Shown: one piece after another, positions 8,035-61,310 of the stretch
Position numbering within the stretch: position 1 is the first letter of the stretch
Layout of the letters: every line of letters begins with the position of its first letter
Assembly (NCBI GenBank): GCA_028456385.1
Contig: JALNQF010000134.1
Location: 1 to 64,000 of the forward strand
Length of the DNA stretch: 64,000 nucleotides
Direction of reading: 5' to 3'
Source: Ophiosphaerella korrae
Lineage: Eukaryota > Ascomycota > Dothideomycetes > Pleosporales > Phaeosphaeriaceae
Position numbers and translations under genes: made by a program
The notes under the pieces: generated by a model
What the model was told of the DNA's origin: nothing
Seen by the model: only the letters and a program-made list of their open reading frames with translations
Databases searched by the model: none

Positions 8035-10595
8035 ATGACACCTAAGTACCGTATACCATCCAGCTCGCACAAATCGAAACAATTGAGACCTACTACCTAC
8101 GGTATCAGTGGCAGTTCATAGTCTACATTAACGCATGTACCGACGCTTACATCGACGCCTACCCTAGTAACTATCTCGTTGCACAGAACAACTACTGCAG
8201 GCCAAGTAGCTGATTCCGATATACCTGAACCAGCGTTCGAGCCACCAGAGTCAACATTCGAATCTCAGTTGCTAGAATCGTAGTCTACTAGAGCTGTTGC
8301 CCTATCTCTAGCCGGGAGTAGCCATGCTGTCACAGTAGTTTCAAGTGAAGCCCCTGACGAGAGCAATTCTGAATCTGAGTCTGGGGATGACTCTGTTGGT
8401 ATTAACTGGGCACGCTTACCTAGATTTACGAAGCCGCTGTCGAGTGCAAAACGCGCCAAAAGCTGGGTTTTTGCATACGGCTATCGTGTTGCTGAGCGTC
8501 GAGACCCATCTAAGCTATGGTTTGTATGCAAGTACTGCCATCTACAGACTTATCGAGTGTGGACAGGGTGGTATTGTTGACGTCGCAAAAGCTACTACAT
8601 CAGCAATTGCCATCTTGGGCTACCAAAAGCTGGTCATAATCTTACAAAGGATGGTGTAAGACAACCGTCGAGTACACCTCGACAGTCAGCTGCTACTGGT
8701 GGAAGTATACAACAAAACGCTGCCAATGCATTTAGTGGGTTTAATGTACAGTACTTTCGACAGCTTATTGTACTCTGGCTCAACGAAAACAATAACCCAC
8801 TACGAGAGATTGAGACGCCACGTTTCCGCGAGATGATCGGCTATCTTAATCCTGAAGGTAGAGCAGCATTGTGGGTAAGCCGTACTAGCGTCTCAACATT
8901 TATAATATGGCTCTTCAAGCATCTCCAACCTCAAGTTACTACAGCATTGTCATCTGCTATTAGTAAAATACATATAAACTTTGACGGCTGGACAACAAAA
9001 GGGGGCAAAAGTGGCTTCTTTAGTAATATTGCTCACTTAGCTGACGTAAAGGGAGTAATACATGACCTACCTATCGATCTTCCTCAGCTCGCTGGCGCAC
9101 ATACGGGTGAAGCTATTACCCAAGTAGTAGTTCGAACACTCGCAGTATACAATATATTACCTCAGAGGTTAGGTTACTTTGTATTTGACAATGCCGCCAA
9201 CAACGATACTGCAATTTCTGCAATTGCGCGAGACTACGACTTTGATTCAGCTCACCGGCGCCTCCGCTGTAGCTGCCATATACTTAACCTTATTGGTCAG
9301 AAGATTGTCCACGGTACCGACAGAGATGCCTATAATAATACAAAGGAGGATTATACTACAGAAGGACAATATATGGAGGAGTGGCGTAGACAGAGCCACT
9401 TGGTATATTAATTGATATTATCAACTACATCAAAACACCGCAACAATACGACCTTTTCCGAAGTTTTCAGGAGACTGCTAACGCCCAGCTACCGGAGGAA
9501 GAAATACTCCGGATACTCGAACCAGTTAAGCCGGTTGTTACTCGATGGAACTCGTACTACTCAGCGTTTAAGCAGGCTACAAGGCTCCAGTCTGCCTACA
9601 ACTTATACGCAGAGTATCATATTAATCAGACCGTACTCAAAGACCATTCAGCTTGCCGCTCTCGTATTCAGCCACCAGATGCCCCTAGCTGGATGAGGTC
9701 AACTGGGCTTAAGGCAGCTGATTGGGCTGTAATTACAGGGTATCAAGACCGTTTAGAGCCCCGTAAGCTTACTACACAGCGGCTTGAAGGGCGAGATAAA
9801 GCTAGGAGATTTGGAGCAATCCATGAGGTTATACCAGTCTTTAAATATATCCTTCACTTACTCAAAGTATGAACTTGCCTATTCGAATATGTCGACTTTG
9901 ATGCTTATACTGAGGCCCTTAAGGATCACTTTATAATTAACCTTCGCGCAGCTTAGAGTAAGGCTAATAACTACTACCTTAAGCTTGACGACTCGCCTGT
10001 ATACTATGCTGCTGTCTGTCTCCACCTATATTAAAAATACTACTACGATAATGCCTGGGCAGATAAGGCCGAATGGCTCAGTAACGCAAATGCTGGATTC
10101 CAAAGGCTCTGGTCAGCATACAAACCTCTACGCCCGCGCTCATCTCATACTATATTACCGCACACAAATAGTATCGACAATGTAATTCGTGCATATATAC
10201 ACCGCGGCCATGGTGTAGGTACGCCAGTTGACGAGTTCGAGCGCTGGAAGTCACTAGAGTCAGTATGGGCGCACGACCAGTACATCGCTAAGGGAAATCC
10301 AGTCAAGTATTAGCTACAACTACGACCAAAATACCCTACTTTATCCTGTTTTCCAATTGATATGTTTAAAATCCCAGCATCTAGCAGCGATTGTAAGCGC
10401 CTCTTCAGTAAGCTTAGTGACTTACTTGAGCTAAAACGTCGTAACCTTAGTAGTGAGCACCTCTCAGCTCTACAGCTGATATGTTCATGGACCAAAGCTA
10501 GGTTCAGTCTGCTTCATACCGACGATAGTGAGACTGGTGACGAGGAGATTATTGAAGAGTTTAATATACATGGGTGGGATACTCTAACGGTCTAA
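8035..10595 (+). pseudogene. hAT-family transposase, broken
   Basis: The pieces in order are: a BED-type zinc finger near 8385-8560 (SWVFAYGY then CKYCH); an RNase H-like core at 8833-9411 (INFDGWTTKGGKSGF, VFDNAANNDTA, CSCHILNL); further collinear fragments from 9412 to 10185 in shifted frames; and the C-terminal hAT dimerisation region at 10362-10595 (SSSDCKRLFSKLSDLLELKRRNL). Several frameshifts and stops separate them, so no intact product is expected. Confidence 0.85.
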
Positions 10596-18923: not shown

Positions 18924-20126
18924 CTATATCCCTAGGTCGATGCCGTACAGCTCCTGCAACATGTGCCTTTTCACGTCTTCAGAAGCCCAGCAAATCTTTA
19001 TGGCATTCTCTGCCAACCTTTGTATCTCCAAATTCGTAAAGCCGCAGTATTTCTTCACCACGAGCAAGTTTTCTAGCACCCATGCATCCTCCATAAATGC
19101 CGGATCGTCGCTTGCAATAGCGATCCTAATGCCGGCGTCGAAGAGAGCTCGAATGTGTTGAAACACTTTGTCCATTGGTTGGTGGCGAATATACGACCAA
19201 GGGCAGATTGTCATTCCAAGCTCCTTCTCCTTGATTAAATTGATGAGATGTACATCGCCAGCAGCATTTAGTCCGTGATCGATTCTGTCCGCGCCTGTGC
19301 CTGCGATACTCGATGCCACCTGATGAATATGTTCGAGAGGATAGGGCTTGCCAACATCGCAGTGGGCTGTAAGGCGAAAGCCATCATTCCTTGCTCGGAC
19401 GAAGACTTCATCAAATAGCGATGGTGGTCTGTCGACTTCGTTCGAGTCAAGACCAATCGCCACTATCATATCGCGATATTTTAGTGCTGCATCATAATGT
19501 TCCATTGCGGACTCTGGTGATTCGTCCCGAAGGAAGCACATGATCCAAGCAGATTTCACCTACAGTGCGCTGTGAGCAAAAAAAAAAACGTTTCTCGAGG
19601 AAGACGACGGGCTTACGTTGAGGTCCTGTGCAGCTTTCCGCTGCGCTTCTCGAAAACCCTCCATCATCGTCTCCCAACTCGTCCCAAAGCGCGTATGTCC
19701 TTGCGGATCAAAGAAAATCTCAGCATATCGCACATTCATGGCCGCAGCATGTTCATAATAATACATAGCAAGATCATAGCAGTCCTGCTGCGTTTTGAGA
19801 GTCTCAAAGCCACCGTAATAGGCCTCAAAAAAGGACAGAATCTCTTCCTTGTTGGTCGTGGGGTTCCCAGTACGCGGCTTCCAGGTGTTGTGAGAGTCTC
19901 GTAGTTCATCAAGTGAAGAGAAAGGTTGACGGGTTCGAGGGTTGATGATTGCTTGGCCGTTTCGTTGCGAGAACTTCCATTTTAGATCTGCACCTATAAT
20001 TCCTTCTATGTGGACGTGAAGCTCGACTTTCGGAACTGCGTCGATGTATGCATCTTTTGTAGCCACTAGGGAGCGCCTCAGCTCTCCTCGTCCTGCTACG
20101 GACAGCGCATTCCCTGCGTCCGTCAT
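18924..20126 (-). CDS. aah1: Adenine deaminase (Aah1-type)
   Basis: Amidohydrolase-fold purine salvage enzyme converting adenine to hypoxanthine (family knowledge). The first metal motif HVHIEG follows PKVEL. AHCDVGKPYPLEHI replaces the AGE motif of true adenosine deaminases and resembles the HCDV motif of fungal adenine deaminases. RIDHGLNA and SDDPAFM complete the site. One intron, 19560-19616 (57 nt, GTAAGC...TAG), joins exons 20126-19617 and 19559-18924 in frame to about 381 residues. I chose the ATG at 20126 because the 34 extra in-frame codons up to 20228 lie inside a duplicated upstream repeat. No defects are seen, so this is a normal housekeeping gene within a repeat-rich island. Adenosine deaminase-like is the alternative reading. 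Confidence 0.85.
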
Positions 20127-20180
20127 TGTGGTCGCGGAGTGGTATCTGTAGAAGCGGATTCGCGGGTGCAGCCGGAAAAA

Positions 20181-20352
20181 GCGATCCAAGGAGGACAATG
20201 ACACAGATTTTGAGCTTTCGAAGGGCACAGTAGTAATATCAATGTATATAAAAGATGGTCTAAGAAGCGATCCAAGGAGAACAATGGCACAGATTTTGAG
20301 CTTTCGAAGGGCACAGTGGCGATATCAATGTATATAAAAGGTGGTCTAAGGA
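20181..20352. repeat. 86-bp tandem duplication upstream of the adenine deaminase gene
   Basis: Two copies, about 90% identical, of an 86-bp unit starting GCGATCCAAGGAG. Each contains ATGTATATAAAAG on the plus strand. The array covers the likely promoter or 5' leader of the minus-strand gene. Confidence 0.85.
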
Positions 20353-22079: not shown

Positions 22080-23095
22080 ACGTTGACGTTTTTAAGTACT
22101 ACAACGTTAGCAAAGAGGCAGGATGGGCTATATTAAAGGAGGGCAATCAGGCTTTTGATAGAAGGCATCGCAACAATGAGGCTATCCAAGAAACCCGAGG
22201 TCGCAAGCTAAAGTTATCTACTAAACAGCTTGAACAAGCTGATAGATTCTTGCAAGATGTCGGGTGGGATGCACGCATTTTGATATAGAAACAGCTAGCT
22301 AAGGAGCTTTGATTTAACGTTCACAGTAATACTCTACGCTCTGCTATTGGTTCAATCGACTATTACAAAGGTATTACCTGTACTAAGGACTAGATCTCTT
22401 AAAGATATGCTAAAGAGCGCAAGACCTTTAGTGAAACAATGCTAGGTCTTAAGCCACAGAAGGAGGACTGGCATAACGTTAGGTTCTTTAATAAAGTACA
22501 CTGTCGTGTAGGTCCTCAAGGGAAGCTTCGGATTATCAGGAAATCGGGTGAACGCTACTGCTCTGATTGTATCCAAGAGCAGCTCAACCGAGAGGATAAG
22601 AGAGAGTGGGAAACCTCACATATTTGGGCGGCTGTTAGCTACAACTTCAAGTTAGATCTCACCTTTTACAATACCCCAGGCAACAAGAATAGCAAGCTAT
22701 CTCTCAAGGTCTACAGAGATCAGATTCTTAAGCCAGTTGTAGGCAAGTGGCTTAAAGATCCTAAGACTTCCCCCTTTGTCCTTGAAGAGGATAATAACAG
22801 CGGCTATAGAGGTAGCAGCAACACTAATATTGTGGCAGTTTGGAAGAGAAAGAACGACCTAGATCACTACTTCAACAGCCCTAATTTACCAGACCTTGCT
22901 CCTATTGAAAACTATTGGCAGGTGATAAAGCAACACCTCAAAAAATATCCACGTTGGGATGAGGGTGAGGCCCGTGAGCTGGCTTACGAGGGATGGGAGA
23001 AGGTCACTCAAAAGCTTATTAATCAGAGGGTTGAAAGTATGCCTCAAAGGCTTCGAGATTGCATTGAAATGGATGGAAGAATGACTGGGTATTGA

Positions 23096-23413: not shown

Positions 23414-26400
23414 ATGGCCTCGGCGATATTCTTTGGCGATGCGAACGCCAGCCTCCAAGCTGGCATCGTCAACGGCTCAGTCAACACCACCTTCCACCCT
23501 CCACCTGGTACAGTCACTCGCGAAATTGGGTCTGCACTAAAGCTAGAGCAGAGAGTAGGCGCTTACCAGACATCTAGGACGAGATGACCCCCTCAGTCGT
23601 TTACCGTGCGCCGAGGACGCGCCGTTCAACTCGTACTCGAAGCAACACGAACCCACCTGCTTGCCCAACACGCGCGTCGGCCTTCTCGAAGAAATATACC
23701 ACTGGGTTGATGGGGAAGATGAACGCTGCATCTTCTGGCTGAACGGCTTGGCCGGCACGGGAAAGTCGACCATCGCCCGCACGGTCGCCCGCAGGCACCG
23801 TGAGCAAGGCCGTCTTGGCGCCAGCTTCTTCTTCTCAAGAGGCGGCGGAGACGTTAGCCATGCGGGCAAGTTCGTCACGAGTATTGCCATCCAGCTTGCG
23901 CGGAACGTATCGCCCCTCTATCAACACATCTGCGACGCCATCACAGAGCGTAGCGATATTGCGAGCCAGTCTCTCCGTGACCAGTGGCACCAGCTCGTCC
24001 TCGGTCCGCTAGCGAAGCTAGGCGGCAGTGGCTGCAGATCCTCGTATATTCTGGCCGTTGATGCGCTTGACGAGTGTGACGACGACGAGAACATCCAGAT
24101 TATTGTGGGGCTCTTGGCCGAGGCTCGCTCGTTGGAGACGGTCCGGCTGCGCGTGTTTTTGACGAGCAGACCCGAAATTCCGATTCGATGCGGGTTCCGC
24201 CGGATACCGAATGCAGAGCACCGTGACTTTGTTCTCCACAACATATTGCCGTCGATTATTGACCACGACATATCAGTTTTCCTGGAGTATAATCTTAGAC
24301 TTGTCGGGCAGGAACGCCGCCTAGAGGCTGGCTGGCCGGACAAAGTGATTATTACACGTTTAGTCCAGAATGCAAGCGGTCTATTCATCTGGGCCGCAAC
24401 CGCCTGTCGGTTTATCCGCGAAGGAAAGCGATTCGCAGTCAAAAGACTCGATACGATAATTCACAGTAGTAGCAGCATTGCCACGGCCCCAGAACAGCAC
24501 CTCAATGAGATTTATGCTACTGTGCTTCAGCACTCGATCTATTCCGACTACGCCGACGATGAGAGAGAAGAGCAGTATAGAATGCTGAGGCATACTCTTG
24601 GAAGTATAGTGGTCTTATTCTCTCCCCTTTCTGTCAACTCTTTAAGCAGGCTACTCAATGCCCCAAATCAGGATGTCGACCAGACGTTGGAGGATCTGCA
24701 TGCCATCCTGGATATTCCGAAGGACCGAGCCCAGCCACTTCGCCTGCACCATCCTTCGTTTCGTGACTTCCTCCTGAATAGAGAGAGATGCAGTGATCCA
24801 AACTTCTGGGTAGAAGAGACACAAGCGCATCAGCAGCTGACAGATAGTTGTATCCAGCTTATGGCCACCTCTCTTAAGCGGGACATCTGTGGCGTTAACG
24901 CTCCCGGGACGCTTGTGGCTGACGTAGAGAGTACTGAGGTGGAGGAGTATCTACCTCTAGAGGTTCAGTACGCATGCCTCTACTGGACCCAGCATCTCCA
25001 GAAGGGCGGCGCTCAGCTTTGCGACAATGACCAAGTCCATCGGTTCCTGAAGGTCCATCTCCTTCACTGGCTAGAGGCGCTTAGCTTAATGCGGAAGACC
25101 TCTGAAGGAGTTCTTGCAATCACTTTGTTGGACTCTATGATTAATGTAAGTGATTCCTAAAGGCACTTAAAGGTCAGGATTAATTTTATATCACCAAGGC
25201 TAATGAGAGCCCCCGACTGCACGAGTTTATCCACGACGCAAACCGATTTGCTCTATATAACCGATCAGCAATTGAAGAGGCTCCTCTCCAAATATACTGC
25301 TCTGCTCTTGTCTTCGCGCCGGTAATGAGTATAATTCGTAAACAATTCATGGACCAGACTCCGGACTGGATCTGTAGGCTGCCAAGAGTGGAAGAAGAAT
25401 GGAGCAGTTTGCGGCAGACCCTTGAGGGCCATTCAGATTGGGTCTCGGCTGTGGCATTCTCGCCGGACGGCAAGCTGATGGCGTCTGCATCTAGAGATAA
25501 GACGGTTAGGCTGTGGGACTCGGCCACTGGAGCGGTGCGGCAGACCCTCAAGGGCCATTCAGATCTGGTCTTGGCTGTAGCATTCTCGCCGGATGGCAAG
25601 CTGGTAGCGTCTGCATCTGATGACAAGACAGTTAGGTTGTGGGACTCGGCCACTGGAGCGGTGCGGCAGACCCTCAAGGGCCATTCAGATCAGGTCTTGG
25701 CTGTAGCATTCTCGCCAGATAGCAAGCTGGTAGCGTCTGCATCTTATGATACGACGGTCAGGTTGTGGGACTTGGCCACTGGAGCGGTGCGGCAGACCCT
25801 CAAGGGCCATTCGGGTTGGGTCAGGGCTGTAGCATTCTCGCCGGATAGCAAGCTGGTAGCATCTGCATCTTATGATACGACGGTCAGGCTGTGGGACTCG
25901 GCTACTGGAGCCGTGCGGCAGACCCTTAAGGGCCATTCAAATCGGGTCTTGGCTGTAGCATTCTCGCCGGATGGCAAGCTAGTGGCGTCTGCATCTGATG
26001 ACAAGACGGTCAGGCTGTGGGACTCGGTTACTGGAGCGGTGCGGCAGATCCTCAAGGGCCATTCGGGTTGGGTCAGGGCTGTAGCATTCTCGCCGGATGG
26101 CAAGCTGGTAGTGTCTGCATCTTATGATACGACGGTCAGGCTGTGGGACTCGGCCACTGGAGCGGTGCGGCAGACCCTCAAGGGCCATTCAGATCCGGTC
26201 TTGGCTGTAGCATTCTCGCCGGATGGCAAGATGGTAGCGTCTGCATCTTATGACATGACGGTCAGGTTGTGGGACTCAGCCACTGGAGCGGTGCGGCAGA
26301 TCCTCGAGGGCCATTCAGGTCGGGTCAGGGCTGTAGCATTCTTGCCGGATAGCAAGCTGGTAGCGTCTGCATCTTATGATACGACGGTCAGGCTGTGGGA

Positions 26401-26770
26401 CTTGGCCACTGGAGCGGTGCGGCAGATCCTCAAGAGCCATTCGGGTCGGGTCTGGGCTGTAGCATTCTCGCCGGATGGCAAGCTAGTAGCGTCTGCATCT
26501 GATGACAAGACAGTCAGGCTGTGGGACTCGGCCACTGGAGCGGTGTGGCAGATCCTTGGGGCAATCGACGTGGCCTCGGGTGACAGGAGCAATGATAATT
26601 CAGAATACTCCATAGATTGGTCAGGGCGTTGGATAACTCGCAAGGGCCTAAAGGTCTTGTATCTTCCCGTTGACTATAGGACAGGTTATGTTGAGAGGGA
26701 CGGCTGTACTGGGGTAATTGAATCTCCTGATGGTCTGGCTACGATTATTGCCTTCCGCTTAGATAGATGA
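23414..26770 (+). CDS. NACHT-WD40 NLR with short Gly/Asn-rich N-terminus
   Basis: Predicted STAND receptor without a HET domain. The start ATG at 23414 gives a 31-residue first exon ([16 protein letters not shown] core, then PPPG). Intron 1, 23508-23577, and intron 2, 25146-25198 (GTAAGT...AAG), are placed by frame continuity and by family landmarks that then read through ([39 protein letters not shown]). NACHT: Walker [10 protein letters not shown] near residue 88, Walker [10 protein letters not shown] near 189. Nine WD40 repeats of 42 residues run from about 627 to 1004, then a conserved tail; the total is about 1077 residues. The N-terminus resembles the short amyloid-type signalling motifs of some fungal NLRs (inference). 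No HeLo-type partner gene is seen next to it. Confidence 0.87.
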
Positions 26771-28857: not shown

Positions 28858-29204
28858 CAAGGCCGACCGCGATGCAAGCGTATTATCGTGGAGAGGTAGG
28901 CAGCGCAGCGCAGCAGTCCATATCTCTCATTGCATTGGCAATTCTGTATCTTTGAAAATATTGTAATTGTTTCTGATCGGATTCCTACGCATTTGTAGCG
29001 TCGCAAACCAAATCTTGTTAATTCACAACTTGCGACAGGCCAGCGTTGAGGCTGCACGTCGGCGCTGAGCCCCGCGCGCACTGCGGCTGAGCACCACCAC
29101 CCCGCAGATGCACCCGGCTCAAACAGATCGAGAGACATAAATTGCTGCTCTGCGCTTCCCCCTCTCCACGATAACACGCTTGCGTCGCGACCGGATTTGA
29201 CCAG
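28858..29204. repeat. Large inverted repeat upstream of the chimeric NLR
   Basis: Arms of about 65-70 bp at 28858-28928 and 29130-29204, about 80% matched (core CAAGCGT(A/G)TTATCGTGGAGAG). The right arm ends 35 bp before the NLR start codon. The spacer is about 200 bp. Confidence 0.75.
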
Positions 29205-29238
29205 CGCTCTTTGCTTAGAGAGAAGGTGCTGCGGCAAG

Positions 29239-32200
29239 ATGCGACTTCTACAGCGCCTGCCAGGCGGCGGCTTTCAGCTGCTATCTTTCGACGATGAACA
29301 CCCTCCGCCGTACGCCGTCCTCTCGCACACCTGGACTGAAGGTCAGGAAGTCACGTACCATGATCTGGTGGCCGGTGTAGCCAAGGACACGACAGGCTAT
29401 GCCAAAATCCGCTTCTGCGGCGAACAAGCGGCGGCGGATGGCCTTCAGTACTTCTGGGTTGATACCTGCTGCATCGACAAGTCTACCAGCAACGAGCTGA
29501 GCACAGCTATCAACTCTATGTTTAAATGGTATCAGCGTGCGTCCAAGTGCTATGTATACCTATCAGATGTTTCTGTACCAGAGGTCGCTGACACCCAAGC
29601 CTTCCCGATAACATGGGCGGAAGCATTTCGACGGAGCCGATGGTTCACGCGAGGGTGGACGCTGCAAGAGCTTTTAGCGCCAGCCAGGGTTGAGTTCTTC
29701 TCTGTAGAGGGCAAGCGGCTAGGTAGTAAAATATCGTTGGAGCAGGAAATCAACAACATCACTAGTATTCCCATCCGGGCATTAAGAGGACAGAGTCTCG
29801 CCGAGTTTAGTGTGGATGAGCGGAGGAGCTGGGCGGGCCAACGCACAACAACGTTAAGAGAGGACAAAGTGTATTGCCTACTAGGTATCTTCGGGGTATT
29901 CTTACCCCTTATATATGGGGAGGGAGAAAAATACGCGACTCTACGGCTAGAAGAGGAGATACAGAGGCGTCAGAAAGGAAAGGGAACAGAGGATCTGCAT
30001 GACCTGTCTGGTGCGTCTTAGTCCTGACGAAGCAGCACTTCTATACGCGAGCTGTTCATAGCTAACCATGTATAGTCTCCTCGTTGTCGCCTTTCCCAAG
30101 AAACGAGCGCTTCGTCGGACGAGAAGACCAGTTTCAGTCTCTCGAACAATTCCTCTTCTCCCCAACCACACACCAACCCATGACGGTACATGGACTAGGA
30201 GGCTGTATTGAGATGGAAGGCGCCGGCGTCTCGGAAGAGGTGTCTTGCATCGTCGTCAAAGGAGTGTGCGATTATGCGGACGATCACAAGAACAAGAAAT
30301 GGCAGAATTTTGCAGCTGCGACAACAGCTACCGCATCTAAGGCCGTTCTGGAACGGTATGCCCAAGCAGATAAGAGCCTGGGAGGAAGTATCAGTGATAG
30401 TGAGTCAAGTTAATTTACTGTCACCGTGGATGAGACTCGAGGCTAACAACCCGGCTAAAGCAGGAGGCTGCAGCGTGTCCGTGGCAAGTACAGCACAACA
30501 AGGTCAACAAGCACTACAAACGACAGGAGGGCGCGTTTTCAATGGACCAATTTCAGGCGAATATGTTATCTCGGGGATCTACACAACCGGAGGAACGGTG
30601 AACCCTAACTTCAACCATCCCAAAGACCACCGCCTGGTTGATCTTCAATCGATCGATTCCCGTCAAGACAAGGCCCTACGTGGTGGACCGTTCTGGTCAG
30701 TCCCATTTGAAAGAAATCAGCGATTCGTTGGCCGCAGCTCTCAGTTGATCGCGCTCGAGAATGGTCTTGTTAAGAAGGCCCGCTTTTCGAAATTCGCCAT
30801 CACTGGCCTTGGGGGTGTAGGTAAGACGCAGGTTGCTCTGGAGTTGGCGCATCGAATCAGAGAGCAGCACTCAGAATGCTCAGTATTCTGGGTTCCATCT
30901 GCCAATGTCGAGAGTTTTCACCGAGCCTACTTGGAAATAGGGCGCCTGTTGCAAGTACCTGGACTTGAGGGGGAGAAGTCGGACGTGATGAAACTCATAT
31001 TGCGCCACCTCAGCCAGGGAATCTCCGGCCAATGGTTGATTATATTCGACAACGCCGACGATGTTGATATATGGTTCAAGAAGCCTGCTGAGGGCAAAGG
31101 GAACCATCCCTGCCTCATCGATTACCTGCCGAAGAGCACCAACGGATCTGTGCTCTTCACAACTCGTGACCGCAAAGCCGCAGTACGATTTGCTTCTCCG
31201 AGCGTCATTGAAATTGATCAGATGGACGAGGAGGCTTCTGTCAAGGTCCTACGACAGTCCATCATCCATGAAGAAGTCCTGAACGACCGAGAAGGTATGC
31301 TGGAGCTGCTTAGGCAGTTGACGTACCTCCCGCTTGCAATTGTGCAAGCTGCCTCTTATATCAACATGAACGAGGTGACCATTCAGGAGTATCTTTCGCT
31401 CCTCGAAGACATCGAGGAGAACGTAACTGAAGTTCTCAGTGAAGATTTTGGTGACGAGTGGAGATACGAAGATCAAAAGAATCCCATTGCTACGACTTGG
31501 TTAGTTTCGTTCAGACAAATCCAAGACCGCCATCCATTAGCGGCTGCGTACCTATCATCCATGGCATGCGTCGATCCAAAGGAGATTCCTCGGCTAATAT
31601 TCCCTTCTGCACCGTCGAAAAACAAAGAACTCGAGGCTATCGGGACACTGACGGCTTACTCATTTATTAACAAGCGGATTGGTAATCATTCTTTTGATAT
31701 CCACAGGCTTGTCCATCTTGCTACTCGGAGCTGGCTGAGGGAAGAAGGTTTATTAAAAGATTGGACAGTCAAAACGCTCTCTCGATTAACAGATACCTTT
31801 CCAAGGGAAGATCACGGGAACCGAACTCTATGGAGGACGTATTTGCCTCATGCACGACATCTCCTTATGTCTAACCTGATTGACAAGAGAGATGAGGTAC
31901 GACTACAACTTCTTGATAAATCTGGCCGGTGTTTGCTCAGTGACGGAAGATATGATGAGGCAGAACATCAATTTATGCAGGTAGTGGAAATAAGAAAGAG
32001 TTTGATTGGGGAGGAGCACTCAGACACGCTGATGGGGATGCATTACCTTATGGTAACGTATTGGAACAAAGGACGGTGGACCGATGCAGAGAAGTTAGGA
32101 GTGCAGTTGATACAAACGAGGAAGAAATTGACAGGGGAGGAACATCCTGATACCCTGATGAGTATGGGGAGCCTCGCGACGATATACAGAAGCCTAGGAC

Positions 32201-34332
32201 AATGGGGCAAGGCTGAAGGCTTGTCGAAGCAAGTGATTGAGAGGAGTGTTAGAGTTTTAGGGGAGGGGCATCCAGATACTCTAACGAGTATGGCAAATCT
32301 TGCATTCACATATAGGATGCAGGGACGATGGAACGAGGCGGAGAAGTTAGCGAAAGAGGTGGTGGATGCAAGAAAGAGAATGCTAGGGGAGGAACATCCG
32401 GATACGCTTAGAAGCATGGCAAACCTCGTGTTAACATACAGGAGTCAGGGGAAATGGAACCAGGCGGAGAAATTGGGGGAGCAAGTGACAGATACGAAAA
32501 GGAGGGTATTAGGGGCAGAGCATCCGGATACTCTCATGGGCATGCATACACTTGCGTTGACGTATTGGAGTCAGGGACGATTAGATGACGCGGAGGAGTT
32601 AGGGGAGCAGCTGGTAGTTACAAGAGCGAAAGTGCTAGGGAAAGAACACCCAGATACTCTATGGAGTATACATAACCTCGCACTAGTATATTGGGGACAA
32701 GGTCGATGGAATGACACGGAGGAGTTAGGGAAGCAGGTGGTAGAGACAAGAACGAGGGTATTAGGGAAGGAGCACCCAGATACGTTGATGAGCATGCACA
32801 ACCTCGCGTTGGCCTATTCGGGTCGAGGGCAATGGGATGAGGCAGAGAATCTAGGAAAGCAGGTGTTGAAAATTAGAATGGGGGTACTAGGGAAAGAACA
32901 TCCAGATACACTGAGTAGTATGATGAACCTTGCGTCAACGTACAGGAGTCGAGGACAGTTAGATGAGGCGGAGGAGTTAGCGAAACGAGTGATCGAGATA
33001 AGCGTCCAGGCTCAGGGGCAGGAACATCCAGATACGCTAATGAGTATGGCTAATCTCGCGCTAACATACATGAGTCAAGGGCGATGGGATGGAGCGGAGA
33101 AGTTATGGCAGGAAGTGATAGGAACTCGTACAAGGGTTCTAGGGGAAGAACATCCAGATACTTTGATGAGTATGGCAAATCTTTCGATAACATATAGGGA
33201 TCAAGGACGATGGGATGAGGCGGAGGTATTAGGGAAGGACGTAATAGAAAAGAGAAAGAGAGTCCTGAAGGCGGATCATCCAGAGATTCTGTGGAACATG
33301 GCGAATCTAGCGTTGACGTATTGGGAACAAGGACGATGGAATGAAACGGAGGCCTTGGAAAAACAGGTCCTAGAGGCCAGAACGAGGGTGCTAGGGAAAG
33401 AGCATCCAGATACGCTGCTGAGCATGGCCAATCTGGCATCAACATATAGGAGTCAAGGGCGATTGAACGAGGCAGAAGAGTTGGGGGGACAGGCGGTAGA
33501 GATGGGTGTAAGGATACTAGGTGGGGACTACCTAGATACGTTAATAAGCATGTGTGATCTTGCATTAACGTATTCGGACCAAGGGCGATGGAATAAAGCG
33601 GAGGAGTTAGGGAAGCAGGTGGTAGAGACAAGAACGAGGGTACTGGGGAAGGAGCACCCTGATACGCTGACGAGTATGGCAAATCTCGCATCAACATATA
33701 GGGGCCAAGGACGGCTGGCTGAAGCGGAGGAGTTAGGGGAGGAAGTAATAAAGAAGAGAAAGAATATTTTAAGAGAGAATCACGTAAAGATTTTGCAGGG
33801 TATGGGGAGCCTCGTGTTAACGTACAAGGGCCAGAGGAGATTGGATGAGGCGGAGAAGTTAGGGAAGCAGGTAGTAGAGGTGAGTATAAGGACACTAGGG
33901 GAGGAGCATCCAGATACGTTGACGAGCATGCACAACCTTACGTCAACATATTCGGACCAAGGGCAATGGAATGAGGCGGAGAAGCTAGGGAAGCAGGTGG
34001 TAGAGACAAGAACGAGGGTGCTAGGGAAGGAACATCCATATACACTGTTGAGCATGGCGACTATGGCGTCAACATACAGGGGCCGTGGGCGATTGGATGA
34101 GGCGGAGAAGTTATCAAGTGAGGTAATAGGGATGAGTATAAGGACGCTAGGGGAGGAGCATCCAGATACGTTAGCGAGCATGTACAACCTTGTGTTGACG
34201 TATTTGGATCAAGGGCGATGGAAAGAGGCGGAGGAATTAAGGAAGCAGGTGGTGGAGGCAAGAACAAGGGTACTAGGGAGGCAGCACCCAGATACGGTGG
34301 CGAGCGCGTGGAGCCTTATCGCCTTACAATAA
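29239..34332 (+). CDS. Chimeric HET / PNP C-terminus / NB-ARC / TPR NLR
   Basis: Three exons (29239-30010, 30076-30399, 30464-34332) read as one open frame of about 1654 residues. Intron 1 has a GTGCGT donor and GCTAAC branch; intron 2 a GTGAGT donor and GCTAAC branch. Domains in order: HET ([18 protein letters not shown], residues 1 to about 250); the start of one NB-ARC ([12 protein letters not shown]...MTVHGLGG) stopping before its GK(S/T); directly fused the last about 65 residues of a PNP/UDP-phosphorylase domain ([28 protein letters not shown]); a Gly-rich linker; a complete NB-ARC (GLGGVGKTQ near 480, IIFDNADD); and about 18 TPRs to the end. The ATG at 29239 fits HET starts. HET kills cells on activation; PNP modules in NLRs are presumed effector or sensor parts. 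It may be expressed as two genes, because the second exon could also start its own transcript. Confidence 0.8.
31990..34320 (+). repeat. About 18 tandem 126-bp TPR units
   Basis: In-frame 42-residue tetratricopeptide units of the kinesin-light-chain type (G.EHPDTL.SM.NLA.TY..QGRW.EAE.L..QV). They are diverged from each other, unlike the near-identical WD40 units elsewhere in the window, and form a ligand-sensing superhelix in this NLR class. Confidence 0.9.
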
Positions 34333-52601: not shown

Positions 52602-55600
52602 CTAATACTTGTTACCTTTAATATTACATATCCATACCCTTCCATGGCGAGTACCAATACCAATCATATTCCTATATACTATAAAATCAGACGGCCGATA
52701 TTCAGGTGGTAGCCATAAGATGTTCTTCAAATCGTAGGTCATCCACATGCGATCCGAACTTATGCTTAGGCCTTGATAGTCTGTGTTGTCCTCTGACCCT
52801 AACGCCAGCCGGGTCGAGTCGGGCGAGAAGGCGACCGAGTAGACCAAGTCGCTATGGCCCTCGAGCGTCTGGAGGCACGCGCCGCTGCTCGTATCCCAGA
52901 TCTTGACGGTCTTGTCGCGTGACCCAGACGCCAGCCGGGTCGAGTCGGGCGAGAAGGCGACCGAGTTGACCCAGTGGCTATGGCCCTCGAGCGTCTGGAG
53001 GCACGCGCCGCTGCTCGTATCCCAGATCTTGACGGTCTTGTCGCGTGACCCAGACGCCAGCCGGGTCGAGTCGGGCGAGAAGGCGACCGAGTTGACCCAG
53101 TGGCTATGGCCCTCGAGCGTCTGGAGGCACGCGCCGCTGCTCGTATCCCAGATCTTGACGGTCCTGTCGCCTGACCCAGACGCCAGCCAGGTCGAGTCGG
53201 GCGAGAAGGCGACCGAGTTGACCGAGTGGCTATGACCCTTGAGCGTCTGGACGCAAGCGCTCCAATTTTTTTCCATCGGTGGTTGAATTTCAATCCAACT
53301 CGGATCCTCTCTTTTGAATAGTAACCTCGTTAGACTGCGTGTTGGACTAAACAAAAGCGCGCACATGTATGTCTGGAGAGGGCTTCTTTCAATTGCCACC
53401 TGGTGATACGTGATGAATCGGCGTCCATCGCGGACCAATTCCAACATTCTAGATTCTACCCTAAATTTGGTTTTGTTCTTGATTTTGTCAGTGCGTGTAA
53501 TTACCTTGTTTGTGTGTCCATAGTAAGTACATACCTGGAGTAGAGCTTCAAGTGCACCCATCGATTTGACTCCAGCAGACATGCTCTTACAAAGGCTGAG
53601 AGCCTCCAGCCAGTAGAGATATTTCGTTCTTAAAAATGTGTCCATCTTCTCTCCGTCTCGCAATATGGCTTGCTCGGAATCGCAGTTAACGAGATGATTG
53701 ACCCAGTAAACACATGAGTAGCGCGACGCTGCTAATGGATCTGGGCATGGCGTTTCAACCAGTTCAGAAGAGTAATCCATCGAGCCTAAGCCGAGCATGT
53801 CTCGTCGGAGCACGTTTAACATGACCATCAGAGACCTCGAAAAGATTTCACGGTGGATTTCTTCTATGCCTGACGGAAATATTTCATTAGCCCCGCTTGT
53901 GAGTAAATATTCCTTCGCAGATTGGTGGACAAAGTAGATAGTACCGTCTCGTATCGTCAGAAGCGATCCACAAAGCCGAACCAACTCCTGTACTGATTCG
54001 GGATCATCAGCTATGTCTCCGAGCTCTTCTACGAGAGATGTCAACTCTCGTAGTGATAAAGGCCGGTATACAACCGCTACTACGGCTAGTACCTTTCTGC
54101 AAAGCTCCCCATCATCGGTGACCCTCATTTGCTGAATTGACCGTTCGTAAAGGCCTGAAAGCCCCGGCGGAAATTCGTCGAGACGTCCGATAACGTTCCA
54201 CTGAGGGATGGATTGGAGGTGTTGACAGACCGAAGCCACCCACAAGAAAGTGTTATTGGCATTTGATTGTAAATAATCAAGCACGGCGTCTTTTGTTTTG
54301 TTGTCGCACTTCTTATTTAACACTAGCTGAGCAACACTATGCTTGATATATGATTGGACAGCGGCAGATAACAATTCCACGTTCAATTCAAGGGTGAGCT
54401 TCACCTTTGTACTTGCTCGCTCGAGGCGTTCCTCGATTTGGGGCCAGTTGCGGCTAGAGACGACCCACTTAACATGTGTCAATAGAGAGGACGTATAGAC
54501 AATTAGATCCAGGAGATCCGGTAAGCTGCCTACACATTCGTCGAGGGCATCAATGATCAAGTATGTGCTTGCTGATTCTGAATCTCGCAAAATGTCAATA
54601 AGAATCTTACTCAAGGACTCCCAGGCATTTGCGTCCTCGAAGAGGCTTTTGCCCGCGACATCGTACGTCCGTCGTACGCGCGAAATAAGCGACGGTTGCC
54701 GATCGATGAGTATGTATATCAACCCTCGCAGTACAGCCACAGCATTGTTGGTTCGTGCATCCGTGGCCTGGCAGAAGAAATAGGTCAATAGGCTATTGCC
54801 GGCCGCGGTTAGACGTTCCAGCTCGTTGATAATGCCGCAGAGAAGCATCGTTTTGCCTGCACCAGGATCGCCTTTAATCCACAGCAGTCGGATTTCTCCA
54901 TTACCGTACCATTTCTGAAAGTCGGTGTTGTCGAGAATCCAGCAGTACGAGTCCCGTAGCAGACCGCCTTTAGTGTCCTCGATGCGTTTCTTGTCAACGC
55001 GCGGATCGGTACTGCGCAAACTTTTCAGACATTCTTGGTCTTCTTCGGAAATTTGGATCGAAGCCTGCTAGCAAATCAGTCATTGAATATCCTCATTTTT
55101 TTTGCCTCCCCGTACTCTGCGAAAATAGCACTTACTTTCATGGAGATGAGCGTGTCGTGGTTTATATGTGACTGAAAGGCACCTGATATTATCACCTTTT
55201 CCAGGAAATTGTCTTCCACGAGCGTTGTCGTATCAAGAGGCACATCGTTCCAATTGAAGTGCTCCTCCGTATCTGGGATACCTACCGAAAAGTTGTCATC
55301 ATTATAAATGACATCGCTATCATTATCGAATGAAATGCCTTCCATTGTATCGGACTCCTGGTCAATATCTGTCGGGAGTGACCCAACTCGAGATGAGCCG
55401 TGGTCGGTACTGTTCGAAGCGCTCCAGTTATCTGCTGACGCGTCCATCGCGACATCTATAGATATAAGTCGTAGAGTGAGAAGCATAACGGTCTGGAGAT
55501 GTCCGGCAATATGGCTAGCGATTGATTCTACGGTGAGATGTTTCATTTGGGGAGCGTCGGCTGAGGCCCTTGATTCCCACTGTTCCGGCTTTGTTGACAC

Positions 55601-57188
55601 CTGGTGGCCGTCGCCGACCGCGTGGCGATCCTGAGCCGCATGGCCCGCCTCTGTCTTGATGCGTTTGACATTACCATGCACCTTGGACTCGTCGCGCGGT
55701 TTCTTCTTCGTCTTGTCCTTTATTGTGGAATTCTGTTGGTCTTCCATAACAAGACAGCAAAGTGGACATACATTGCGCGGTCGAAGAGAACGAACCCGGC
55801 TCTGTCGCACGATGGACTGAGCTTGAGTTCCTGTGAAAATATTTCCGTGGTTACCAGAGAGGTGGCTACCAAGCTCATCCGGGATGGAAAAGGCAGTATC
55901 GTCGTCGTTGCACAAGGAACAAATCCACGAAGACGGCGGATACGCTTCGCGATGCCAGCTTTGGCCATGGGTTGTCAGCATATGCTGAAACCACTGACCC
56001 GACGTCGCGAATCTGGGGTATGAGTCGGGACACTTCTCCGAGATACAAATATACGGGTTGTGGTCCTCATTCACGTGCTTTCTATCATTTTCGAATGAAA
56101 ACGTTAGAGGAATTTGACTGTATACAAAAGAAGGGTTTACAAGGGTACGTACTTCCACTTGTCGCCCTCAAACACATCCTTTGAGAGAGGGCTAAAACAC
56201 CAATCGCAGATCTGATTTTCTTTAGCCGGCCGAGGATAGTCAGTTTGACTGACTAGAATGGAAGTTGCCATTCCCTTTACGCGCTGATTTGAGATCTTCC
56301 TGATCCTAGCCTTGACTTCCCGACTGTCCATGGAGGTAGGCTCCGAACAAAGCGGAGTTGAAGATGTCTGCCGAGGCGCTGGTTGGGCTAGGGGCATCAT
56401 TGTGATGGGGCCTCCACCCAACTGAGGCATTTGCAGTTCAGTGGTATCCATGTGAGAAGCTGGCTCTTCGGAGATGGTAGATAGATGGGCAGGCGTTTCT
56501 CGCACTCTCCGCACTTGGAGCTTGTCCTGTCGAGCTTTGCGGCGGCAGAACAGAGCATAAGTCTCCCTCATGGAGTTCGAGAGGAGTTCGAGAAGGTCCT
56601 CGCTAGCCGCACCGTACATCGATTTCAAGGCCAGGTAGGCAGCCTCCTCGAATGAGGTGAAGTTGAACGTCTCGGAAAACTCTCTGGCCTTAGTAGCCTG
56701 GCTCGTCACTGACGACTGGCGGATGGCGGTTCCGATGTGGTTGAGGCGTTCGATAGCCTCAGAAACGGCTTCTAAGCTATCAATGTTTAGGCAGAGACAT
56801 TCACGATCATCTGAGGTCTCAACTTCCGTGGGTTCAGAAATATCATCTTCTTCGAAGACTAGCATCGTCAGCCCATTGTGCCGGTTGGCGGGATGGTGAG
56901 CGCTGTACTAAAGACTAGATTTCTCTCAACAACACCCAGCAGGCGTAGCACCTGTTCTTGGATTTCGACATGGTGACGAAGCCTACGATCTAGACAGATT
57001 TTTGATTCAGCGAAGACGCCCAAGAATGCGGCCCATGTAGCAAATCGCTGGCTGAGCTCCGAAAGAATTGCTGCGTCGTTTTCCCTCTTGGCTTCCTTCA
57101 GTCTTGAGATTTGCTTCGTATAAAGCCTTTCACAGTCGATGGCAAGTGAATAGATGGGTTCCGAGTTTTCAACAGAGTCGCTTTCCAT
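52602..57188 (-). CDS. C2H2-NACHT-WD40 NLR
   Basis: Four exons joined at introns 56859-56908, 56082-56152 and 55065-55135. Each has GT-AG ends, and the first has a GCTGAC branch. The joined protein is about 1464 residues. The first about 300 residues are helical. A cysteine/histidine region follows (ICDWCFSP near 313, then CISEKCPDS, WICSLC, NVCPLC, each with downstream His pairs), as in fungal C2H2-type NLR N-termini. NACHT: Walker A GDPGAGKTM near 708, Walker B LIIDALDEC near 813. Four WD40 repeats from about 1249; repeats two and three are identical. The conserved tail NILWLPPEYRPS closes it. There are no stops. It is transcribed away from the subtilase gene across a 221-bp gap. The start at 57188 is the first ATG of the frame. 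Confidence 0.85.
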
Positions 57189-57409
57189 AATGGCAATGAC
57201 AACGACACCGCGGATTAGCTTGAATTTCGCTCACAACAGCGAAAAGAACAGGGTTGAGTTGGTCAGCCATTCACGTGATAAGATGAGGGGTTGGGTCTCA
57301 GCTGATTTCGGTGGGGTTTCGCCAAGATTACGGTTTCCCCGCGCCCACCCCCAGCCTGCTTCCAGAAGTACACTGATGATTGTCGGAAAAGCTGTCCAGC
57401 GGGTCCACC
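57189..57409. promoter_or_regulatory. Shared divergent promoter, NLR and subtilase
   Basis: The 221 bp between the start codons of the minus-strand NLR and the plus-strand protease must hold both 5' leaders and promoters. No TATA box is obvious. Co-regulation of the two genes is an inference from this geometry. Confidence 0.5.
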
Positions 57410-60314
57410 ATGCCGAGCCAACAGCCTGACCAAGGTACTTCAACGAAGCTTCTCTCCGAATCCCCAGGGTGGAACGCTCTACAGACGCTCAAGTCTTGCC
57501 TGTCGGGTAGACTTGTGGTGTTTGCGCCGGATCGGCGTCCCAGCCGCAGACCGAGCAGATTCGAAAACGATGTCGCTTTCTTCGAAGACGATTTGCGGTA
57601 TATCTTCAATGCCAAACCCGTCGCTGTTAGCCTCCCAGAGAAAGATCACAGCGACATGGACAGCATGGCACTGGATGTTCTCGAGTCTTTGAATGATATT
57701 GTCAGCAGTGATTTAGTTAAGCTACAGGAAACGGGAGACATGCGTGAATTCGATCCGCGTGAGGACGAAAGCTCGAAAGCTCGCCAAGTTACAAGCTTTG
57801 CCAAATACGAACGGATAAGCGCCATGATGTGCTGCTTGCAAACCCGCCCCGAAGCTCAGTTCAGCCTGGTAGCTGGCCTAGATCCCACGCTGTTCACGTT
57901 ACCCCCAAATGGGCATGGAAAGGTGGTAAAGGGTCGCGCGAAAAGATGGAGAGCTTTCTTGGACCGCCTGGCGGCCGACGCAGAAATATCGCAGGGCTTG
58001 CAAATTATTTCACTACAGGCGATCGGTATACCGACTGAGGAGCTTACGGATAACGAGGGAGACGTGCTTGAGAGGCGCGCAGGTGTGGTGATTGATGCAA
58101 TGTTCAGAGAGTTTCGGCAGCTTAGCTGTGCGACTGTGAAAACGCACGAAGTTAAGCTGAGGCTGTCGGGATTGTATACCGGCCCGCCTATGTCCTTCCT
58201 TGAAATGTTCGTGTCTTGTTGTGCGGGCGAGAAGTGGCACGAGGCTAAGTGCGGCTCGTTTCCGTAAGTTAATCTCCACCATACAAACGCTCGCTGCCAC
58301 GCTCTAACATATACGGCTCAGAGTTGAAATTGATAAGAGAGGAAAGGAGAGCTTCTGCGCCATCATTCCTCGAGCGGTGGAAGAAGCTAAAATACTCCAT
58401 CTATATGTTAGCCAACAGGGAATTTTTAACGTCACAGATATGTTTCCCGCCACACTCTCGACTTCGTCCAAACTCACGTCAAAGGCGCTCAAGGACCTGC
58501 TTCGTGAAAAGGTTTTTGGCCATCTGACCTTGGAAGACTACAAGAATGGAGCAATGGGTAAGAAGGTCGGTCTCAGAGAGAAGGCAAGGATCGCACTCAT
58601 GCTCGCGAGATGTTTATTGGAGTTCTTTGATGAGGACATCGAACTCGCATCGCACAGCTGGGCCCCAGAGCAGATATTCTTCGTCAACCCTCCGACTTCC
58701 GATGCAGTGCGAGGCGACCTTTACGTTTCTCTCAAACCAAGACTTTTCGAGATTAGACCAGTCGATTTGCTCGAAGAATTCAGGGCCGGCAACCCAACTT
58801 TGCTTTCGTTCGCCAGGCTGATGTTAGAGATCGAGCTGGGTGAGGAGATACAGATGAATATTCGTCCTACAAATAAAGACAACGAAAGTAGCTGGGCGAC
58901 CCTGTGCGACTTGGTTGAACAGAGTTCGAAACACGGAGGAAATGTTCAGTATCTAAAGGCCGTGGAAGGTTGTCTGCATTTGTGCGATAACTTGCCAAAA
59001 TCCAAAAACCGCGCAACTGGCTCTGCGGCAAGGAAGGTGTTGAGGAGGGCCATTTATGAAAAGATCATCCGAAAGCTCGAAATCATAGTGAACCCTCAAA
59101 ATTTGAAGCGGAGGCGACAACACTCAGTCTCTGAGTACCCACAGGCCAAGAAACCGACAATCACGTCGCAACTTGGGATTGACTCAACTTCGAGTTTCCA
59201 GAATTCAGCCATGACAATTCCGACTCAGGTGGAGGAGCTAGATTCACGCACATTTGATTCGTTCCACGCGGGAAAGCTTATCAATCCCGAAGATTGGCTC
59301 GAGGACATTAAGCGAATCAGCCGCTACATAGCCAAGATCAAGCACAAGAACTTTGCAAGCGCAGAATCGCGGCCGGTTCGGATTGCGATCCTGGATTCGG
59401 GGTGCAACCTCGAGGCGCAGTACTTTCAAGATGACGAAGGATCCCAACGCGAGGCCAGAATTGTAGATTGGAAAGATTTTGTCCACGAGTCTGAAGCAAA
59501 AGTAGATGTATTTGGCCACGGCACGTTCATGGCAATGCTTTTGATTGAGACTGCTCCACTTGCTGAGCTATATGTTGCACGAGTTGCAGAGAATACCACC
59601 CAACTCATCGGGATGGAAGGTAATATAGGCAGAGTGGGTCTCTCTTCTTTTCCCGTCAACCATCATAGTTGTAGCAAAACTAACCTTGGCGCCCACTAGG
59701 CAATTCGATGGGCTGGTATCGAATGCAACGCCGATATAATATCCATGTCCTTCGGAGTAACCGATGGCGATGGAGACATCAAGCAGGCCATCTTGGAAGT
59801 CCGAAAAGAGCGAAAGGACAGTGTTATATTCTTGGCCAGCGCCGGCAACTCGGGACCGCACGAGGACATTGCCCTTCCGGCACGGTACGAGGGCGTTACG
59901 TCGATCCGGGCGACCGACTGCATGGGAACCGTCGCTAGCACCAACCCCACGACCGATTGGCTAGGCGCGATTTCGTTCGCCACCTTCGGTGACAATATTC
60001 CCGCTCGATTTCGAGACTATAATCCAGAGGTCTGCAAGCCAGGATCATCTGTATCCACAGCGATAGCGGCAGGGATTGCGGCTACTATGCTCTCATACGT
60101 GTGTTTACTTCGGCTACTGTTTCCCAACACTATTAGCGAAGATGACGTCAAGAAAGTGCGGACGGTCAAGGGGATTCAAGATCTCTTCCTCACACTCTCG
60201 ACCGATGTGGGCAATCGGGTGCGGTTCATCAATCTAGTCAAATTCTTCGCAGATCGGGAGACAAACTTCCGCAGACTCTGTGCTATCGTAGAATGCATAG
60301 GCAAGGCTACATGA
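57410..60314 (+). CDS. DUF7580-like / S8 subtilisin protease, HET-Q2-like
   Basis: Exons 57410-58263, 58322-59633 and 59700-60314 give about 926 residues. Introns have GTAAGT/CTAAC/CAG and GTGGGT/CTAAC/TAG signals and keep frame. The N-terminal two-thirds is a helical region resembling the fungal DUF7580 type, without a signal peptide, so the enzyme is probably cytoplasmic. The C-terminal third is a subtilisin domain with a complete triad: Asp643 in ILDSGC, His684 in GHGTFMA, Ser839 in PGSSVSTAIAAG, and an oxyanion Asn in SAGNSG. In Podospora the HET-Q2 subtilase cleaves a gasdermin-like partner to trigger cell death. Here a gasdermin-like gene converges from the other side 174 bp away. The ATG at 57410 is the first in frame. 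Confidence 0.83.
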
Positions 60315-60488
60315 GGGAGTACATGTCATTCCGAGAGCAAAATAGCTCATGATGGAACGATGGAAGTCGGTAAAGAAGAAAAAAAGCTGGTCAGCGAGAA
60401 ATTGGCCCCTTAAGGGAGACTGGAGAAAGATACAACGCGCCATGGCGCTGCTCAACATGGACGCGATTCAACTGAAGGGGCCGGGCGA

Positions 60489-61310
60489 TCATGCCGAAAT
60501 CCAATAGTTATCACCTCCGGCGTCATGTTGATAAACCTCAACTTTCCCCTCGAAACTTTCCCGGAGGACATGGGGAGTTACTTGGACACATTCAAAGCCG
60601 GAGCCATCATCCACCGTCATGAAAGCCTTGCGGTGGGAAAAGAGCTCTTCTTCTACTTCCCCGTCTCCCTTTGTGCGTATGACGTGCACTCGATACGCGA
60701 AGACAATGCCCGGCGCGGTTGCGTACGAGTCGCCCACTGACCTCGTCACTTGCGCATTTGTCTCGCCTCCAACCGTCAAAGGAACAGCACCGGTGGGGTC
60801 ACTTACAGAAGCAGAGCTTTGTCCAGTGATGGTGGTCTCGGCCGTTGTCGATACGGTGAATGATGTCTTGGCGATGCGTATGCCTGTAATGATGAAGATG
60901 GGTTTACGGCGGAGGAAACCTGAATTGATGTATCTCTGTATATCGGGCACGTTTGTAATTGATTTTAAGCTGCCTTTGCTCAGCTCGCGATCAAACGACC
61001 ATACCTCGTGATCTACCATGCCAAAGTCGCGATTGAAGGCCACATCGGCCGATGCGCCAATCGAAGCTGATGCTACCTGGAGAAAATTGGCCCACAGCTT
61101 CAGCCCGGCGACGGTGCCGGCTCCTCTATGGTGTTCGTGGTTCGCTTCTTCGATGCTCCTTTCGGGCGGAAGCTCGAGATCGGCCGGCAGCCCGTTGCCC
61201 TTTGAGGCGAGGATAAGCGTGGGCCGCAACAGGTCTTTGAGAATGGTTCCGAGACGGATTGGACCGTCTCTTCGAAAGGTAAAATCCGGGGCCAGGAACC
61301 AGAACGGCAT
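60489..61310 (-). CDS. Gasdermin-like protein (RCD-1/HET-Q1 class), putative
   Basis: An intact single-exon frame of 273 codons, the usual length of fungal gasdermin-like proteins (about 250-280). Features I associate with that family: an N-terminal short hydrophobic start, then PIRLGTILKDLLRP; the central PIFIITGIRIAKTSFTV strand; an amphipathic Ser/Thr-rich hairpin region (STTAETTITGQSSASVSD); PGIVFAYRVHVIRTK; and a short C-terminal segment after about residue 225 that could be removed by protease. No signal peptide or stable transmembrane helix. Such proteins permeabilise membranes after cleavage. Genomic adjacency to a subtilase supports the call. The family assignment is from recognition and context and is not certain; a lectin-like or unknown beta protein is the alternative. 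Confidence 0.65.
   Translation of the reverse strand: MPFWFLAPDFTFRRDGPIRLGTILKDLLRPTLILASKGNGLPADLELPPERSIEEANHEHHRGAGTVAGLKLWANFLQVASASIGASADVAFNRDFGMVDHEVWSFDRELSKGSLKSITNVPDIQRYINSGFLRRKPIFIITGIRIAKTSFTVSTTAETTITGQSSASVSDPTGAVPLTVGGETNAQVTRSVGDSYATAPGIVFAYRVHVIRTKGDGEVEEELFSHRKAFMTVDDGSGFECVQVTPHVLRESFEGKVEVYQHDAGGDNYWISA

Follow-up and report, generated by a model that had tools for sequence, protein, structure and literature searches.

A candidate receptor, DUF7580-S8 protease and gasdermin module in Ophiosphaerella korrae with an ancestry seam inside the protease gene

Gasdermin-like proteins and their neighbouring proteases are a recurrent pairing in fungi. About 80% of fungal gasdermin genes lie near a protease gene according to the openly available parts of two reports (PMC10989679, PMC10197012), and protease-gasdermin two-gene clusters, fusions of NOD-like receptors (NLRs) with proteases (PMC10197012, PMC10989679, PMC12881547, PMC9815663) and the occurrence of zinc fingers in a subset of NLRs (PMC12258605) are already known, as far as the accessible sections go. 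The control of gasdermin-activating proteases is left open in the accessible sections of a 2025 review, which also remark in general terms on "two- or three-gene clusters" (PMC12881547). The closest described systems, HET-Q1/HET-Q2 of Podospora anserina and the Q2L clusters, are portrayed in the sections available as pairs of an S8 protease gene and an adjacent gene for a small, short-tailed gasdermin-like protein. The same arrangement is found in the window analysed here, bases 1-64000 of a 121-kb contig (JALNQF010000134.1, hereafter C40) from the 63-Mb, 974-contig genome of O. korrae, where a first-pass annotation had placed an NLR gene, a subtilase gene and a gasdermin-like gene side by side and read them as sensor, activator and executioner.

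All three gene models are intact, as that annotation had them, with intron borders picked by frame, GT-AG ends and fit to relatives and thus predicted from sequence rather than from transcripts. The receptor (1464 residues, minus strand) begins with a head composed of an N-terminal helical and a C2H2 region (55136-57188; exons 57188-56909, 56858-56153 and 56081-55136), in whose exons no Pfam domain exceeded the cut-off. Its last exon (52602-55064) encodes a NACHT domain (NPHP3_N, 54450-54947, 1.4e-33) with intact Walker A (GDPGAGKT) and Walker B (LIIDALDEC) motifs together with WD40 repeats (7.2e-55), some of them near-identical (52794-53260; 3.7 copies of a 126-bp unit, 96% matches), a pattern familiar from rapidly evolving repeats of fungal NLRs. 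The protease (926 residues, plus strand, 57410-60314; exons 57410-58263, 58322-59633 and 59700-60314) carries DUF7580 (58064-59093) ahead of a Peptidase_S8 domain (59376-60095) with an intact triad of D643 (59394), H684 (59517) and S839 (60048), the codon positions following by arithmetic from the gene model; the D, H and S are kept in 28, 27 and 26 of 30 aligned rows, two of which are nucleoside phosphorylase (PNP) rather than S8 proteins. The start codons of receptor and protease are divergent and separated by 221 bp (57189-57409), and the stop codons of protease and gasdermin-like gene are convergent with 174 bp between them, within the 10 kb that serves as the Q2L criterion, as is also the case at six other loci of the genome.

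The gasdermin-like protein has 273 residues and a single exon (60489-61310, minus strand), close to the 278 residues given for HET-Q1 in the available text (PMC10989679 / PMC10197012). A profile of its family (35 rows) matched three entries in the PDB, all of them RCD-1 gasdermins (best E 0.0035), and a gasdermin N-domain fold is predicted for the protein, whose structure model resembles gasdermin pores most; the gasdermin fold expected at first pass is recovered in the prediction. The C-terminal tail (residues 214-273, 60492-60671) is mostly of low confidence in the model and is presumed inhibitory by reference to HET-Q1 as described in the accessible part of a review. F224 and F230 are nearly invariant among the relatives, the closest full-length named ones among the matches listed being from Thozetella, Penicillium and Immersiella (56-61% identity), while a Diplogelasinospora fragment is 71% identical over half the length of the protein. 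By sequence and modelled fold the protein is gasdermin-like, and pore formation and killing are predicted for it.

The trio is not confined to this contig. A genome-wide search with the C2H2 exon (E<=0.001) returned eight places including the exon itself, and each of the seven others, on contigs C669, C22, C21, C223, C569, C180 and C113, has a DUF7580 and/or S8 match in divergent orientation at a distance of 1-3.2 kb. Since the 54 DUF7580 and S8 matches, extended by 4 kb in both directions, take up by arithmetic roughly 0.7% of the genome, the association is far beyond chance. With gasdermin queries taken from three loci, nine loci carrying such a gene were detected (C40, C569, C113, C22, C21, C223, C669, C14 and C846), some of the single matches being weak; a paralogue-free profile recovered the first eight at E<=4e-6 among 373 frames, with C40 itself in the profile, and C846 comes from one direct query search and not from the profile. 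Using a profile built from heads of other species and the window head, heads were seen within about 6 kb of all nine loci, and seven hold the complete trio of head, DUF7580-S8 protease and gasdermin. The protease is divergent to the receptor in every trio, and the order receptor-protease-gasdermin is kept in six, the gasdermin at C669 sitting between the other two. Heads also stand divergently upstream of 14 of the 16 DUF7580 loci for which at least 5 kb upstream was read (misses at C157 and C401), including DUF7580 genes without S8; eleven further DUF7580 loci are outside this count, and three of these, C180:22057, C148 and C889:423658, showed no head in 1.5-kb flanks. No head was seen in the 1.5-kb flanks of seven other S8 loci either, a control shorter in range than the test. 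All these counts are lower bounds from a sensitivity-limited search, and heads distant from DUF7580 may exist. C180, with a head and an S8 match, was left out of the trios because its candidate gasdermin reached only E 0.02.

Adjacency of a NACHT domain was discarded as a test in favour of the head, there being at least 151 NPHP3_N matches in the genome and at least four on C40. The density of receptors on this contig (at least four listed NPHP3_N matches in 121 kb and an NB-ARC-TPR frame) is also an argument for regarding the protease-gasdermin pair as the sole functional unit, with DUF7580-S8 itself as the sensor and the receptor as a bystander in an NLR-rich region. Such a reading agrees with the two-gene clusters with the protease as receptor that appear in the accessible parts of reviews (PMC10989679, PMC10197012), and with P. 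macrosclerotiorum and Fusarium gaditjirri, where gasdermin and protease adjoin by tag and no adjoining head was seen among the matches listed. It is difficult to reconcile with heads at all nine gasdermin loci and at 14 of 16 DUF7580 loci, or with a head that follows the DUF7580 half of the protease in phylogeny, as described below. We consider it unlikely; the receptor gene probably has a part in the system.

What stays constant beside gasdermin and protease is the C2H2 head of the receptor, not NACHT-WD40 or an NLR as such. The head is followed by NACHT-WD40 at C40 and C669, by NACHT_N in the same frame at C223 (with an NB-ARC-TPR frame downstream and a start that looks patatin-like by eye), by a downstream TPR frame with DUF7779 at C21, by a downstream NACHT at C113, by a kinase frame and then a HET frame at C22, and by a sub-threshold ankyrin match at C14; at these other loci, parts that do not share a frame with the head are putative components of the same gene. 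At C34:22751-28656 (L045, L016), a head divergent to a DUF7580 gene is fused in one frame to HET (3.6e-24), and relatives elsewhere carry ankyrin, kinase, NACHT, RhoGEF, NB-ARC-TPR or CHAT behind the conserved head. The NACHT and WD40 frames of C40 share 51% and 60% identity, respectively, with their C669 counterparts and the head exon only 30%, as if sensors had been swapped onto heads. Zinc fingers as the sole N-terminal domain have been reported in five Sordariales NLRs (PMC12258605). The sensor-activator-executioner proposal of the first-pass annotation is thus supported by recurrence and fold but needs two amendments, since the constant partner is the head rather than the NLR and the protease also carries a DUF7580 half.

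The window protease is a chimera whose DUF7580 and S8 halves differ in ancestry. Its relatives are of two kinds, termed A (Bathelium, Chlorociboria and Pseudocyphellaria) and B (Thozetella, two Penicillium, Microsporum, Immersiella and Schizothecium). Window residues 1-200 and 200-560 are 51-63% identical to the three A proteins and 32-48% identical to four DUF7580-PNP proteins, the identity to A-type proteins over the DUF7580 half being 56-63%, whereas the window S8 domain is only 34-37% identical to that of the two A proteins that have one. The reverse holds for the six B proteins, at 60-64% over S8 and 26-30% over DUF7580. Scored in windows of 40 residues, the best identity to A drops from 0.85 (residues 521-560) to 0.20 (601-640) as that to B climbs from 0.20 to 0.53. 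The change of ancestry, from DUF7580 proteins paired with heads to S8 proteases paired with gasdermins, is placed at residues ~565-583 (59160-59216, plus strand) from identity by domain, alignment and trees, with the exact bounds set by eye. In the DUF7580 tree, the window protein belongs to a clade of nine rows that also holds A and PNP proteins (100/100), and in the S8 tree it groups with B (87/84), separated from the two A rows by a 100/100 branch. DUF7580 itself is a putative kinase-like domain, probably a catalytically dead transducer, judging from the structure model of an orthologue; among 12 alignment rows inspected by eye, none shows an HRD motif where it would be expected. P0049 from Achaetomium macrosporum, a second candidate chimera with DUF7580 and S8 in different clades, has a long branch in the DUF7580 tree and is not claimed. 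DUF7580 is also found fused to nucleoside phosphorylase (PF01048) in P0046, P0053, P0055 and others from Aspergillus and Penicillium. For A. insuetus and A. spectabilis, the matches listed suggest that the DUF7580-PNP gene shares its contig with a head gene.

The neighbouring genes follow the two halves of the protease. In the head tree, the window sequence clusters with those of Pseudocyphellaria MMC07_000016 and Chlorociboria B7494_g5907 (94/87; 97/95 for the enclosing set of four rows), and these two adjoin the A-type DUF7580 genes MMC07_000017 and B7494_g5906, respectively, synteny outside the own genome being read from locus tags and contig records in hit lists. Gasdermin and B-type protease appear on the same contig in Thozetella, P. 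macrosclerotiorum (adjoining tags 000408 and 000409) and Immersiella; more widely, gasdermin and protease genes do so in seven of the ten organisms present in both lists, among the matches listed. The locus joins a left and a right part of different ancestry that meet within the protease gene, and this tracking suggests that the receptor works with DUF7580 and S8 with gasdermin. Gasdermin and S8 diverge in step over the seven loci of this genome (rho 0.63, p 0.009). Another conceivable role for the C2H2 protein is to regulate transcription of the divergently placed protease gene through the shared 221-bp promoter, with no direct contact to DUF7580. C2H2 motifs are often DNA-binding and the divergent arrangement recurs; however, a whole NACHT-WD40 or NB-ARC-TPR part behind the head fits a cytosolic receptor better. 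The head moreover follows the DUF7580 coding half of the chimera, though a shared promoter would travel along with it, and transcriptional control appears rather improbable to us.

From the gene models, predicted folds, recurrence and observed chimera, we infer a scheme in which the C2H2-NACHT-WD40 protein would be the sensor, with ligand bound by WD40 and oligomerisation driven by NACHT. Its C2H2 head would contact DUF7580 in the divergently encoded protease, and S8, thereby activated, would remove the ~50-60-residue C-terminal tail of the gasdermin-like protein, with a candidate cleavage region at about residues 224-240, near F224 and F230. The freed N-terminal part would form membrane pores and cause cell death. 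The head-DUF7580 pair and the S8-gasdermin pair would be separable units, joined by recombination within the protease gene. We lean slightly towards accepting this three-gene cell-death module of sensor, DUF7580-S8 protease and gasdermin as a whole. A variant that differs only in how S8 is switched on has the receptor act by crowding alone, its oligomer gathering DUF7580-S8 chains for mutual activation in trans. NACHT-WD40 proteins are expected to oligomerise, and DUF7580, being fused to PNP domains as well, may be a generic dock; nothing specific speaks against this variant, which we nevertheless hold to be decidedly improbable. For the module itself, a role in allorecognition or in defence is conceivable, the evidence favouring neither.

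A broader proposal, to which we give somewhat less than an even chance, is that fungal immunity relies on a general plug and socket made up of C2H2 head and DUF7580. Many sensors (NACHT-WD40, NB-ARC-TPR, ankyrin, kinase and RhoGEF) would be connected through it to many executioners (S8 with gasdermin, PNP and HET), new circuits would arise by recombination at the seam in the DUF7580 effector gene, and the window locus would be one such product with its junction.

Several results weigh against the module. The three genes, expected at first pass to stay together, do so at seven loci of the own genome, but none of the other species has all three together among the matches listed, which show the two pairs separately only. 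A head and a protease or DUF7580 gene are on apparently the same contig in only 5 of the 16 organisms in both lists, among the matches listed; the tags in Magnaporthiopsis poae are 11 apart, and some of the misses may be different assemblies. At C14 and C846, a head and a gasdermin are present and no protease was found, and the C846 gasdermin match (C846:6515-9574, L058-L059) is decayed, with five TAG stops, beside head fragments. The DUF7580 gene at C34 has no S8, and no gasdermin was found nearby. For head and DUF7580, no agreement in divergence is seen over the seven loci of this genome (rho 0.00, or 0.12 with the helical part of the head), where DUF7580 similarity is near noise. Head divergence showed no agreement with that of S8 or gasdermin for the untrimmed head and only a weak one for the head cut to its own region (rho 0.39 and 0.34, p 0.048 and 0.073, respectively), the trimming having been decided after the untrimmed result; ten pairs were compared in the head/DUF7580 test round, and p values are uncorrected. 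Finally, the Pfam Gasdermin model gave E 0.23, below the cut-off, and the kinase-like fold match of the orthologue DUF7580 model is modest (Foldseek best E 0.012).

Elsewhere on C40, an NLR-rich contig with at least four NPHP3_N matches among those listed, the window contains three further NLR-like loci: HET with NACHT at 367-4279 (minus strand), NACHT at 23559-26770 (plus) and HET beside NB-ARC-TPR at 29050-34332 (plus), with WD40 in neighbouring frames judged by eye. An adenosine deaminase-like gene lies at 18924-20324 (minus; PF00962, 2.4e-37 on 18924-19559), and frames at 8581-9411 (plus) and 22403-23095 (plus) resemble hAT and Tc1/mariner transposases by eye, with no Pfam match at 1e-5. 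In prokaryotic and viral contig collections, 20 and 34 pattern matches were obtained, respectively, none confirmed as relatives.

No description of a C2H2-headed receptor paired with DUF7580 effectors, or of the swap seam, was found in the available portions of the open-access literature on fungal gasdermins and NLRs, and DUF7580 was not found mentioned in the open-access literature; the pairing and the seam look new. For each protease, here and at the paralogous loci, a candidate controller can be named, together with a proposed contact between head and DUF7580; given the chimera, the two halves should be exchangeable at one seam.

Compared with HET-Q1/HET-Q2 and the Q2L clusters, as described in the available sections, the window has a separate C2H2-headed NLR divergent to the protease, and a protease that carries DUF7580. 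Fungal NLRs with N-terminal S8 or CHAT near gasdermin genes likewise bring NLR, protease and gasdermin into one pathway, but in these fusions NLR and protease are one protein and in the window they are two, as far as the accessible parts of the sources go (PMC9815663, PMC12881547). The nwd2/het-S pair also sets a NACHT receptor gene beside a cell-death effector gene, according to the available text (PMC10197012). Its signal passes by amyloid templating, whereas the reading of the window invokes no amyloid motif, and none was searched for. The nwd2 receptor carries WD40 repeats. Animal inflammasomes, composed of NLR, caspase and gasdermin D, offer a working analogy in their separate sensor, protease and pore former. 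They differ in protease family (S8 here) and in adaptors (C2H2 head and DUF7580 here), and, apart from the gasdermin fold, the two systems resemble each other in operation rather than by common descent. If the proposed module is true, fungi possess a chain of separate proteins that resembles an inflammasome and is assembled from other adaptor parts.

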